Origin: Sorex araneus
Taxonomy: Eukaryota; Chordata; Mammalia; Eulipotyphla; Soricidae
DNA: 64,000 bases
NCBI RefSeq assembly: GCF_027595985.1
Contig: NC_073304.1
Span: forward strand, 217,876,000-217,939,999
Direction of reading: 5' to 3'
In this document: piece after piece, positions 28,772 through 64,000 of the stretch
Layout: each line of letters begins with the position of its first letter
How positions within the stretch are numbered: position 1 is the stretch's first letter
The notes under the pieces: generated by a model
What the model was told of the DNA's origin: nothing
Seen by the model: the letters and a program-made list of their open reading frames with translations, nothing else
The model's database searches: none
Position numbers and translations under genes: made by a program

Positions 28772-28937
28772 TTTTTTTTTAAATTGAATCACAGTGAGAT
28801 ACAGTTACAAAGTTGTGCATGATTGGGTTTCAGTCATATAATGTTCCAGTACCCATCCCTTCACCAGTGTACGTTTTCCACCACCAATGTCTCCATTTTC
28901 CCTCCTGCCCCCTGCTTGCATCTATAGCAGACACTTT

Positions 28938-32867: not shown

Positions 32868-33000
32868 GGCAGAGCGTGGCAAGCTGCCTGTGGCGTATTC
32901 AGTATGCCATAAATAGTAACAACAAGCCTCACAATGGAAACGTTACTGGTGCCCGCTCGAGCAAATCAATGAGCAATGGGATGACAGTGATACAGTGTTG
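32868..33000 (+). mobile_element. RTE-tailed SINE, 5'-truncated
   Basis: Body GGCAGAGCGTGGCAAGCTGC, GGCGTATTCAGTATGCC and AGTAACAACAAG, then an RTE-derived tail beginning AATGGAAACGTTACTGG and ending in GACAGTGATACAGTG. The tRNA-type head is missing, as expected for incomplete reverse transcription. There is no polyA; the tail ends in CAGTGATA-type repeats. Confidence 0.85.
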
Positions 33001-36435: not shown

Positions 36436-37013
36436 TAAATCTATCAAAGTCTTTTGCCCGCACGCCTGGCTGCCTTCCCTGGGGCCCCTCGGAGGGGATG
36501 GGCTCCAGCTTCCCTCCCCACCCCGAGCAGAGCTCCCGGGGGCTGAAGACCACTGGAACCTAGCTACAGCCATGCTAGAGGCCCCTCGCCACACGTTCGG
36601 ACAGGCCTCACGCATGAAGGTACCGGCAGAGGAACCCAGGTATGTGTAATTCCATCAACGGCCAACATCCAGAGACTTAAAAGCAAGCTCCCAGAAGCTC
36701 GCGGCTGCAAAGCCTTGTACACAATATCTTGTAGCCTACTTCTCCCTCTGGGAGAAACTGGCAAGCTTCTGAGTGTTTCCTGCCCACATGGGACAGCCTC
36801 GCAAGCTTCCCATGGTGTATTCATATGGTAAATCCAGTAACAAGCTGGATCTCATTCCCCTGACCCTGAAAGAGCCTCCAGTGCGACATTGTTGGGAGGG
36901 CCGAGTTAAGAGAGACTTCTAAGGTCTCAGGGAAAGGACGAATGGAGAGGATACTAAGCCCACTTGAGAAATCGACGATTAACAGGGATTTCATTATTGT
37001 GATCGTGTTCGTG
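36436..37013 (+). mobile_element. 578-bp non-autonomous RTE-tailed retroposon with 13-bp TSD
   Basis: Flanked by a perfect ATCAAGGTCCAAA (36423-36435 and 37014-37026), so both ends are fixed. There is no tRNA-like box A/B head and no long open frame. The 5' 290 bp is unrecognised, GC-rich at first. The body from about 36740 (CTCTGGGAGAAACTGGCAAG, CAGCCTCGCAAGCTTCCC, CATATGGTAAATCCAGTAAC) matches the body of the RTE-tailed SINEs. A segment present only here (TCATTCCCCTGACCCTGAAA onward) follows. The tail from 36941 (AATGGAGAGGATACTAAGCC, GAGAAATCGACGATTAACAG) is homologous to the RTE 3' end, and the element closes with GTGATCGTGTTC repeats. Probably mobilised by the RTE. It may be an internally deleted RTE derivative or an independent SINE-like family. 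Confidence 0.85.
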
Positions 37014-43716: not shown

Positions 43717-43727
43717 ATGCTTTCAGT

Positions 43728-43954
43728 AGCACTGTAGCACTGTCGTCCCATTATTCATTGCTCGAGCAGGCACCAGTAATGTCTCCATTATGAGACGTGT
43801 TACTGTTTTTGGCATATTGAATACGCCACAGGTAGCTTGCCAGGCTCTGCCCTGCGGGCGGGATACTCTCGGTAGCTTGCTGGGAGGGATGGAGGAATCG
43901 AATCCGGGTTGGCCGCAGGCAAGGCAAACACCCGCTGTGCTATCGCTCCAGTCC
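43728..43954 (-). mobile_element. RTE-tailed SINE, full length
   Basis: On the minus strand: tRNA-type head (GGACTGGAGCGATAGCACAG; GGATTCGATTCC), body (GCAGAGCCTGGCAAGCTACC, GCGTATTCAATATGCC) and RTE tail (AATGGAGACATTACTGGTGC ... GACGACAGTGCTACAGTGCT). Flanked by ATGCTTTCAGT and ATGTTTTCAGT (43717-43727, 43955-43965; 10 of 11). No polyA. Confidence 0.9.
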
Positions 43955-44150
43955 ATGTTTTCAGTTAAACTATTTAAATACAATGATATAAAAAGCAGAA
44001 TCTGTTTTCCACCCGACTCAGACTTTGAAATCTGCAAGGAGCTTGTCCCCTCTTTCCCCACATGCCTACATAAGTCCTTGTTGTCTGCATCTTCCTGTGC
44101 TCGGGTCATGCTCTCTCCTGGGGAGGAGGTAGTGTGTCCAGTTTGGTGAC

Positions 44151-48962: not shown

Positions 48963-48974
48963 CTGCAACAAGTA

Positions 48975-50479
48975 CCACTTGTATCACTTGTCATCCTATT
49001 GATCTCCGATTTGCTTGAGCGGGCGCCAATAACGTCTCCATTTGTCCCTGTCATGTGCTAGTGTAGCCCAATGATATCTGCTTGCTCCAGGAACAGGAAG
49101 AGCCTCAAACCGTTCATTCAGGGTTTTGACGAAGAAATCTGACCATCTCGTTAGTAGGTGGCCACGCAGTCTTTTGACATCCCGTGGAATCCAGTCAGTA
49201 ACAGCTCTAGTCCAGCGGTCGTCTGTGAATCGCATTACATGTCTGGCTCATCTGATTTTTGATGCCTTGGCAAATGAAACAGCATCCCTGATTCTTGACC
49301 GTCCACAGAGGTCGGAATTCCGGATTCCTCCCCTCACTTGAGTGAGATGTGATACTCCTAGCATAGCTCTTTCAATTCTTTGGGATACCCGAATAGCATT
49401 CTCATCCTGTTTGTGTAGGGCCCAGGTCTCTGAGGCATATGTTAGTGCAGGAAGAACGGTGGAATCAAAAATATATGCCCACTCTTTTTTTTTTTTTTTT
49501 GCTTTTTGGGTCATACCCACCAATGTACAGGGATCACTCCTGGCTCATACACTCAGGAGTCACCCCTGGAGGTGCTCAGGGGACCATATGGGATGCTGGG
49601 ATTTGTACCCAGGTCAGCCGCATGCAAGGCAAACGCCCTACCCGCTGTGCTATCACTCCAGCCCCTTCTTTGACACTCTTGAAGGCTTTCCACGCTGCTC
49701 TCTTCCTCCTGTGCAGTTCTGGCGCCAAGTCGTTCCTCATGTTGAGTTCTCAACCCAGGTACACATAGCTGCTGCATTTGGAGATGTTCGTTCCATTGAG
49801 AGCAAATGGAGCATCAGGGACTAGTTCGTTTTTCTTGTTGAGATTCAGCTGCAGTCCGACCTTTCTACACTTGCGGTCGAAGTCAGTCAGCATTTGTGCT
49901 GCTTGGCTAATGTTTGGCCTTATGAGAACGATGTCATCAGCGAAGCGGAGGTGGTAACTAGACTGTCTATCTTCACTCCCATTCCTTCCCATTCCAGTCG
50001 TCGCATGACGTTCTCGAGGGTGGCACTGAAGAGTTTTGGTGAAATGGTATCATCCTGCCAAACCCCTCTCTTTATGTCAATGATCACTTCCTTGTAAAAT
50101 GGTGAGATCCTGGTGGTGAATCAGTAATACAGCTCTCAGAGGATCTTGATGTACTGAGTTTGAATGCTCTGTTTGCCTAGGGCTTCAATGACTGCCTCAG
50201 TCTCAACAGAATCGAAGGCCTTCTTTAAGTCGATGAATGTTAGACAGAGCGGCATCTTGAACTCTCACGAAACTTCAATGAGTTTGGTCACTGTGTGGAT
50301 ATGGTCGATCGTGCTGAATCCTTTTTGGAACCCGGCTTGCTTGCATGGTTGTCCTTCATCTAGTATTCTGCCTATTCTATTCAGGATGACACGAGTGAAC
50401 AACTTGTAGATGACAGACAGCAGGCAGATTGGGTGATAGTTGCCGATGTCGTGGATGTCTCCCTTCTTGTACAACAGAA
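48975..50479 (-). pseudogene. RTE reverse transcriptase, 3' segment (decayed)
   Basis: Encodes, in pieces, the RT fingers and palm and the C-terminal region: YKKGDIHDIGNY, motif A FIDLKKAFD (about 50211-50238), the catalytic FADD at 49933-49944, then FDSTVLPALTYASETWAL, and the C-terminal HWATLAHDRDKWRRYWRPLK. Stops at 50265-50267, 50136-50138, 50121-50123 and 49248-49250, and a frameshift near 49960-49990, make it non-functional. A polyA SINE interrupts it at 49485-49665. After the terminal stop the trailer is only about 30 nt and ends in CAAGTGATA-type repeats. Confidence 0.92.
49485..49665 (-). mobile_element. polyA SINE nested in the RTE copy
   Basis: T-run, GGGTCATACCCACC, ending CTATCACTCCAGCCCC. 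It splits the RT region between VKE and EWAYIFDS, so it is younger than the RTE insertion. Confidence 0.95.
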
Positions 50480-51431
50480 TGGTAACTCACAGTTCCAGAA
50501 GGCCAAATCTAAATGCTGGACATGGGAGTCTCCTGGTGGACAGTTCCACAATGAAACTGACCACATCATATTCAATCGAACGTTTTGCCTGACTGATGTT
50601 GCTGTTGTCCCAAAATTCCAAACGGGGTCAGACCACCGTCTCCTTCATGCAAAGTTCTACTTTACAGAGCGGAGAGAAAGGTCTGCAAAGTTTAATTTTA
50701 AGAAGAGAGCTCCCAGAATGACCACCAACTGGGAGCTCTTTGGCACTATTACGGCAACAAGGGAAGATGCCGTCCTTGACAACATCGACAAGGAATACGA
50801 TCGACTGGCTCAGCACCTCCATGGCTGCGAGAAGAATGCCGAGAGTGGGAAAGCCACAAACAGATGCCTGTCTTTGGAAACTCTCGGGCTCATTCGTCAA
50901 CGTGGTTTGGCACAAGCCTCAGGCAACTACAAGCTAATGTCCGAGCTCACAAAGCTGTGCAGAGAAGCAATGAAGGGAGACCTCAAAGAGAGAAGAGCGG
51001 TAGTGTTGGCTAATTCGGCAGAAGCCGGGAAAAGTATTCGCAACGGTCGCCTGTCCTTCGCCAACTACAAGACCAAGATGACTGCCTACCGACATCCTGA
51101 TGGATCTATCACATCTTCCAGAAAGGCAATGGAGAGGATTATTCACGACTTCTACTTGGATCTTTTGACAGCCATGTCCACCTTCCTGCCCACATACCAA
51201 ATTCTGCAGGATGGATATGTCATTCCCAACATCTTCCCTTTCGAAATCCGACACGCCATTTCGTTGGTAAAGATGCATACAGCACCCGGTTCAGACAAGG
51301 TCAGACCTGAACACCTGAAGAATCTGCCGCCAGTACTCATTAATACACTGGCTTGGCCCTTCACACGCTACCTGTCTGAATGAAAGGTTCCGTCCAAGTG
51401 GAAACCAGCAGGACCGTTCTGTTGTACAAAA
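50480..51431 (+). pseudogene. RTE endonuclease end and RT start, inverted 5' segment
   Basis: Reads on from the junction as GNSQFQKAKS, WTWESPGGQFHNETDHIIFN, the endonuclease motif SDHRLL (SDH at 50628-50636), the linker to RT (KKRAPRMTTNWELF) and PEHLKNLPPVLINTL near the RT start. It is open for about 300 codons until a TGA at 51381-51383 replaces a Cys codon. The continuous open frame from 50433 begins in antisense RT sequence, so its first 16 codons are an inversion artefact. Confidence 0.92.
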
Positions 51432-51534
51432 CTGCAACAAGTAGAATATTTTATTTTTACTTATTTCTTTCAATTACAGATATGCATAAAATATGAAGTA
51501 CTGAAAAGCACTCAGGGAAATAAAAATCACAAGA

Positions 51535-63655: not shown

Positions 63656-64000
63656 CATTGTATTTTATTTTATTTTGCTTTTTGGGTCACACCTGGCGAT
63701 GCGGGGCTGGAGCGATAGCATAGTGGTTGGGCGTTCGCCTTTCACGCAGCCAACCCGAGTTCGATTCCTCCGCCCCTCTCGGAGAGCCCAGCAAGCTATC
63801 GAGCCCACGCGGCAGAGCCTGGCAAGTTACCCGTGCGTATTGGATATGCCAAAAACAGTAACAATAAGTTTCTCAATGAGAGACGTTACTGGTGCCCACT
63901 CGAACAAATCTATGAGCAACGGGATGACAGTGATTCAGGGATACCTGGAGGATGCACAGAGGTTACTCCTGGTTTTGCACTCAGGAATTATTCCTGGCAG
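63656..64000 (-). mobile_element. polyA SINE interrupted by an RTE-tailed SINE
   Basis: 63656-63702 holds the tail end (TTTATTTTATTTTGCTTTTT, GGGTCACACCTGGCGATGC) and 63943-64000 continues (GATGCACAGAGGTTACTCC). It runs off the right edge of the window. Confidence 0.93.
63703..63942 (+). mobile_element. RTE-tailed SINE, full length, nested
   Basis: Head GGGCTGGAGCGATAGCATAG with box B GAGTTCGATTCC; body CTCTCGGAGAGCCCAGCAAG, GCAGAGCCTGGCAAGTTACC and GGATATGCCAAAAACAGTAA; RTE tail from about 63868 to GATGACAGTGATTCAGG. Flanked by ACCTGGCGATGC (63691-63702) and ACCTGGAGGATGC (63943-63955 region). Confidence 0.93.

Follow-up and report, generated by a model that had tools for sequence, protein, structure and literature searches.

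Results

RTE-tailed SINEs and an RTE copy in the window

The window (the whole stretch of 64,000 nucleotides of Sorex araneus DNA that was analysed) contains copies of a SINE whose 3' end is shared with an RTE retrotransposon, a copy of this RTE, and A-tailed shrew SINEs. An RTE-like tail was present in all three places where the first-pass annotation had reported one, namely 63703-63942 (plus strand), 43954-43728 (minus strand) and 32868-32996 (plus strand). The copy at 63703 is composed of a head (63703-63768), which is the tRNA-derived pol III promoter region common with the A-tailed shrew SINE, a middle corresponding to a piece of the RTE 5' UTR (63767-63867), and a tail corresponding to the RTE 3' end (63875-63942), with the last ORF codons, the stop region and the terminal repeat. 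A fold-back hairpin (63856-63890) crosses the junction between the 5' UTR and 3' end pieces; all of these features lie on the plus strand. The 5' target-site duplication (TSD), ACCTGGCGATGC, was recognised by eye at 63691-63702 within an antisense A-tailed SINE, and the 3' copy, ACCTGGAGGATGC at 63943-63955, differs from it by one substitution and one extra base; the automatic rule, requiring at least 7 identical nt, misses this TSD. When the element and one TSD copy are excised, the A-tailed SINE consensus is restored without a gap. The second full copy (43728-43954) has the TSD ACTGAAA[A/G]CAT at 43955-43965 and 43717-43727, and the third (32868-32996) is 5'-truncated, consisting of the 5' UTR part and the tail with no TSD recognised. 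As previously noted, poly-A is absent from the three copies and their termini are ACAGTGAT-type units; ACAGTG units are the usual terminus of copies elsewhere that resemble the one at 63703. An old relic at 36744-36843 (plus strand, 75% identity) contains the RTE 5' UTR module without a tail and derives from either the SINE or the RTE.

The partner RTE copy occupies 48974-51431 (minus strand) and is flanked by a perfect 11-nt TSD, ACTTGTTGCAG, at 51432-51442 and 48963-48973. Its RT part lies on the minus strand and its 5' part is inverted, with an open frame at 50364-51383 on the plus strand. Twin priming leaves such an inverted 5' part. Pfam RVT_1 was matched on two of four scanned pieces of this copy, one below the family cut-off, and an A-tailed SINE with a tRNA-like head according to Rfam and ARAGORN was later inserted in it (49490-49662, minus strand). 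The homologous end shared by the RTE copy (48976-49042, minus strand) and the SINE copies is about 65 nt long. The reported similarity of the tails to the RTE proved to be above chance: local alignments of the three tails with the 525-nt RTE 3' end scored 54, 48 and 75, and the best of 1000 dinucleotide shuffles per tail scored 31, 36 and 30, with 0 of 1000 reaching the real score for each tail. A search of the window with the tail-start pattern (up to 3 mismatches) gave five matches against 0.25 expected. One was found in the RTE copy (49042-49026, minus strand, no mismatches), and three were found in the SINEs at 32933 (1 mismatch), 43789-43773 (minus strand, 1) and 63876 (3). The fifth, at 28881-28897 (minus strand, 3 mismatches), lies outside the described SINE and RTE copies.

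The A-tailed SINE consensus matched the window 57 times, with 37 full-length matches. Both primers (forward and reverse) of a published assay for shrew SINEs, listed as specific for Soricidae (PMC8608897), have exact sites in this consensus, and the element was thus taken as Sor-type on the primer match; Sor has been called the T-minus SINE of shrews (PMC8466645). Sor has the same head and host as the RTE-tailed SINE but differs from it in its own body, A-tail, A-rich target sites and lack of RTE sequence. The divergence of the 37 full copies appeared two-humped (0.02-0.08 and 0.12-0.23 K2P, with one copy at 0.335), which may reflect two bursts.

Anatomy of the SINE

Nucleotides 1-66 of the SINE consensus correspond to the head found in the abundant A-tailed SINE of the shrew, and 55 of 64 alignment columns are identical between the 63703 head and the A-tailed consensus, bearing out the host-type head proposed earlier. 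The consensus contains the A- and B-box-like motifs TAGCACAG and GTTCGATTCC, and ARAGORN made 11 tRNA-Ala calls in the window, including A-tailed SINE heads. The homology to the A-tailed SINE stops just behind the B box, and the Sor-type body is absent. From this point, nt 65-174 of the consensus match a local consensus of the RTE 5' UTR (18 copies) at 101 of 111 nt, the matching stretch lying 122-232 nt upstream of the codon that aligns with residue 1 of protein P0001, and nt 182-240 match the consensus of the RTE 3' end (15 copies) at 52 of 60 nt. The first-pass annotation was thus right about the RTE homology of the tail and wrong in limiting it to the tail; with about 110 nt of 5' UTR and the RTE 3' end, roughly 170 of the 240 nt of the SINE are RTE-derived. 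Since the homology among the longest RTE copies reaches about 630 nt ahead of the ORF, the SINE piece is an inner part of the 5' UTR.

Of 30 RTE loci, 21 contain the 5' UTR piece in direct orientation (E 1e-19 to 1e-38). The remaining nine loci show homology to most other copies starting no earlier than oriented position 1376, and three of them (L061, L064 and L067) have the piece in the opposite orientation. The 5' UTR consensus was made from 18 of the 21 copies; it excludes three of the 20 loci with a 5' UTR that were fetched. Within the RTE 5' UTR piece, an imperfect direct repeat, GGCAAGCTACCGAGAGTAT / AGCAAGCTACCCGTCGCGTATT, was seen by eye at about positions 1290-1380 of the oriented loci (e.g. 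L045 and L060). A SINE-specific origin of the middle was considered and is ruled out by the RTE 5' UTR matches in the genome search. The initial test of the middle against the window RTE copy, in which 86 to 214 of 300 shuffles reached the score, was negative and misleading because this copy lacks the 5' UTR. A search of translated nematode proteins for 5' UTR matches gave nothing convincing, and the SINE patterns had 0 matches in viral and bacterial collections. The SINE match spans the head-body junction in all 36 sampled copies, and the head is reached in 9 of 14 further or window copies, these 14 including the three window copies.

The partner RTE and the end of its ORF

The genome search covered the 2.4-Gb Sorex araneus assembly. 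With the RTE protein, 96 places were scored out of 28,096 first-look candidates and 30 loci were kept; the RTE 3' end was present in 15 of 20 fetched copies. The consensus ORF ends in ...KWRRYWRPLEQIEDQRDYK, its TGA stop falling within the terminal repeat, in the first ACAAGTGAT unit, and the consensus of the 15 3' ends reads CAA CGG GAC TAC AAG TGA (QRDYK and stop). The tail had been described as RTE coding sequence with the ORF ending at '...Q'. The tail is mostly coding; the proposed ORF end did not hold, since the TAG of the window RTE is a mutated CGG. This codon is CGG in 10 of the 15 RTE copies and TAG in none, and in the SINEs it is CGG at 63703 and TGG at 32868 and 43728. Apart from the terminal repeat, there is hardly any 3' UTR in the RTE, and the 3' end shared with the SINE thus consists of the coding end of the ORF, the stop and a short repeat.

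Seven RTE loci contained no known RNA family (an HDV-like ribozyme, for instance); the four matches of the scan, with E up to 1, all lay well under the gathering scores. No RTE proteins were found in the viral and bacterial collections, and a further pattern search there matched 23 stretches, none of which encodes an RTE relative. Three Sorex fumeus RTE endonuclease fragments (P0001, P0074 and P0090) are annotated as 'craniofacial development protein 2-like' and represent transposon pieces under host-gene names.

Relatives in nematodes

In the RTE frame, the tail of the 63703 copy (RRYWCPLEQIYEQRDD) matches a Nippostrongylus protein (RRYWRPLEQIDDQRDD) at 13 of 16 residues. With the 83-residue RTE C-terminus, 34 of 35 candidates were related, and all 29 named ones were from nematodes; the best 120 of 385 and of 534 RTE relatives were from Sorex or nematodes where the organism was given. 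The close similarity of the C-termini in strongylid nematode RTEs indicates that the RTE gave sequence to the SINE. Three contigs of 538-1029 bases (P0121, P0123 and P0138, source ena) encode RTE C-termini that are 73-85% identical to the shrew copy; they have shrew-type residues and are possibly shrew-like DNA in other datasets.

Dunemann & Wasmuth 2019 (PMC6542046) reported the horizontal transfer of RTE1_Sar between strongylid nematodes and S. araneus, the only mammal in which they found it, together with nine strongylid nematodes; the direction of transfer was described as uncertain. Their report supports the earlier proposal of a partner RTE common to nematodes and the shrew through horizontal transfer. 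The terms 'SINE', 'non-autonomous' and 'short interspersed' have 0 occurrences in its main text. Judged by organism and protein relatives, RTE1_Sar, an autonomous LINE unlike the RTE-tailed SINE, is taken as the putative donor of both RTE pieces.

Copy number and age

The genome search with the SINE gave 7302 dispersed first-look candidates, of which 40 were scored. Three copies per 64 kb would correspond, by rough extrapolation, to a copy number on the order of 10^5. RTE-body matches numbered 28 in 166,058 bases of the window and the flanks of sampled SINE loci, the flanks being biased to SINE-rich DNA. For SINE-body pieces of at least 90 nt, the median K2P to the young-subfamily consensus was 0.082 (n=17, range 0.015-0.209, four in the window), and the median for A-tailed SINEs was 0.085 (n=80). 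Six RTE pieces from five copies gave K2P values of 0.052-0.122, and the 30 best RTE copies had a median divergence of 0.027 (range 0.011-0.078). The divergences of SINE and RTE copies overlap.

Target sites

Target sites were compared in 36 RTE-tailed SINEs selected by similarity to the 63703 copy, itself included (L009 and L025 were dropped as repeats of L001 and L006), and in A-tailed SINEs of the same DNA, with 22 TSDs of at least 9 nt from 39 copies tried; TSDs were counted by match rules alone, without a shuffled control. A TSD of at least 7 nt was found in 23 of the 36 RTE-tailed copies and none by this rule in the other 13. These TSDs lie outside the SINE head, and poly-A is absent before all 23. 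The T fraction at positions -11 to -8 was 0.60 in RTE-tailed SINEs versus 0.28 in A-tailed SINEs (background 0.273), and the values were the same when TSDs of at least 9 nt were used in both sets (0.60, n=17, versus 0.28). A TTT within -13 to -7 was present in 11/23 RTE-tailed versus 2/22 A-tailed SINEs, and an AAA start of the TSD in 1/23 versus 9/22. In the 7-nt set, Fisher tests gave p of about 3e-5 for the T fraction, 0.007 for the T run and 0.004 for the AAA start. All three values are rough, the first because adjacent positions depend on one another and because the A-tailed count was derived from a rounded fraction. Thus, the T run sets the RTE-tailed SINE apart from A-tailed SINEs, and a T run upstream of the target is the pattern reported for RTE-associated SINEs (PMC13295347). 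The families were not separated by T|A at the nick (11/23 versus 8/22). For RTE copies, a TSD of at least 8 nt was found in 9 of 15 and none in 6, with T|A in 5 of the 9. The TSDs of three window insertions start with AC, a candidate feature that was rejected with only 5 of 23 in the sample. Three of the 36 loci, about 2 Mb apart on contig C7 (L029, L030 and L031), have the same SINE flanks, which suggests that one block was duplicated, not that the SINE inserted three times.

The junction hairpin

At the junction, the last part of the 5' UTR piece pairs with the start of the tail through the stem CAGTAAC/GTTACTG and an inner stem. When the 30 nt upstream of the tail were shuffled, the folding energy was reached in 0, 4 and 264 of 2000 shuffles for the three window copies. 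The energies themselves (-14.0, -12.3 and -6.3) do not stand out from those of 660 50-mers of the window, which have a median of -10.1 and their lowest 5% at -20. Hairpin strings were taken from 47 of 50 copies, and in the 34 scored of 35 distinct strings the outer stem kept 7/7 pairs in 23, 6/7 in 10 and 5/7 in 1. A longer inner stem, changed on both arms, was present in 31 of 35 target copies; among 12 incidental copies, three of them from the window, 2 had the longer inner stem and 8 the shorter form. In the full-length RTE, the 5' UTR and 3' end stretches pair no better than shuffles. Either selection in the SINE or a chance effect of the fusion may account for the hairpin. In addition, four nematode proteins match the shrew RTE at 17, 17, 16 and 10 of 21 residues in a non-coding frame of the RTE 3' stretch, and at 6, 7, 7 and 4 of 12 just upstream.

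Discussion

In the present study, we propose that S. araneus very probably harbours a dispersed family of tRNA-headed SINEs parasitising an RTE of the RTE1_Sar type that is shared with strongylid nematodes. Its head and pol III promoter are those of the A-tailed SINE resident in the shrew. The original body, from just behind the B box, was replaced by an internally deleted RTE, in which about 110 nt of 5' UTR are fused to the last 65 nt or so. The SINE RNA would presumably be made by pol III and bound by the RTE protein through the common 3' end, and insertion would proceed by target-primed reverse transcription. With its own body lost and two RTE pieces gained, the SINE is apparently copied by foreign RTE machinery; we infer that the RTE protein acts on it in trans. 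Support for this copying comes from the similar terminal repeat and from a target-site signature unlike that of the A-tailed SINE; the terminal unit of the SINE (ACAGTG or ACAGTGAT), which is shorter than the RTE unit ACAAGTGAT, counts against it.

The same composite SINE might have received its body from an RTE that predates or is independent of the nematode exchange, or the exchange might have run from shrew to nematode. This history is compatible with the proposal above, and we consider it rather unlikely. It draws on the uncertain direction of transfer (PMC6542046) and on the overlapping ages of SINE and RTE, which give no order, but the restriction of the best 120 of 385 and of 534 relatives to Sorex or nematodes, where the organism is given, and the finding of this RTE in a single mammal and in nine nematodes (PMC6542046) argue against it.

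Mobilisation by L1, as with the A-tailed SINEs, would make the RTE pieces mere passengers. The head shared with the A-tailed SINE and the roughly equal frequency of T|A at the nick are in keeping with L1, but the element lacks poly-A in the three window copies and before 23 TSDs, has a T run and a rarity of AAA starts unlike A-tailed SINEs, and ends in an RTE-like terminal repeat; L1 mobilisation is therefore very improbable. Slightly less probable still are headless deleted RTE fragments lying by chance beside A-tailed SINE heads. Bipartite RTE derivatives formed by internal deletion are common according to PMC7245038, but a chance arrangement is disfavoured already by the uniform junction, which is crossed in every one of the 36 sampled copies with 9 of 14 others reaching the head, and also by TSDs lying outside the head. 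Finally, capture of SINE sequence by the RTE has next to no probability: homology by itself has no direction, but nematode RTE proteins conserve the C-terminus that the SINE tail encodes, and the pieces found in the SINE correspond to opposite ends of the RTE.

The last 19 or so codons of the RTE ORF might carry two messages, a C-terminus and an RNA signal read on both the RTE and the SINE RNA. The SINE would then mark the signal and would keep its 5' UTR piece for the junction hairpin, whose two arms would both have become longer in the youngest subfamily. This reading is tentative, and we regard it as doubtful. It is favoured by the off-frame nematode matches, the retention of the outer stem and a hairpin that does better than upstream shuffles in two of the three copies in the window, and disfavoured by energies that are ordinary among 50-mers and by end pairing no better than shuffles in the full-length RTE.

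Bov-tA of ruminants is a SINE using Bov-B, and the first-pass annotation had compared the shrew SINE with this pair. The comparison stands in so far as both involve a SINE on an RTE-clade LINE. Bov-B is another RTE family than the shrew partner, and the bipartite SINEs of AviRTE (PMC4844689) and of hagfish RTEs (PMC7245038) are closer parallels. In squamates, the Sauria SINE on Bov-B, as described in PMC13295347, also uses an RTE-clade LINE and has a T run at its target sites, as in the shrew, together with a TA signature. Suh et al. 2016 (PMC4844689) described bird SINEs with bipartite 5' and 3' AviRTE tails, AviRTE itself being shared with nematodes. These SINEs, e.g. ManaSINE1 with its tRNA-Glu head, likewise combine a head with 5' UTR and 3' end pieces of a nematode-shared, horizontally transferred RTE. 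They differ from the shrew SINE in RTE family and hosts and in their 3' piece, which is an approximately 40-bp 3' UTR in AviRTE SINEs and nearly all ORF in the shrew; the shrew head, unlike theirs, comes from a resident A-tailed SINE. In the hagfish paper of 2020 (PMC7245038), bipartite non-autonomous RTE families are described as common, sometimes gaining heads, and their birth by internal deletion and chimera formation is proposed for the hagfish SINEs. SINE1-1_EBu, SINE2-9 and SINE2-10_EBu likewise consist of a head, an RTE 5' UTR piece and an RTE 3' end, but these belong to another vertebrate class and other RTEs, and the account of them in that paper does not claim nematode transfer. No description of this RTE-tailed shrew SINE was found among the literature matches examined, with Repbase, SINEBase and most subscription journals outside the coverage.

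Thus, the RTE-tailed shrew SINE adds to the bipartite RTE SINEs known from birds and hagfish, and its special feature is the nearly all-coding tail. Three consequences may be drawn. First, it is a further independent case of a host head joined to an RTE 5' UTR piece and 3' end, beside AviRTE in birds, hagfish and others, so that the need of the RTE machinery for both RNA ends becomes testable. Second, since the RTE is almost without a 3' UTR, the SINE points to coding sequence as the likely location of the recognition signal. Third, an element shared with parasites would have been exploitable by a resident mammalian SINE, adding copies on the rough order of 10^5 to the shrew genome.
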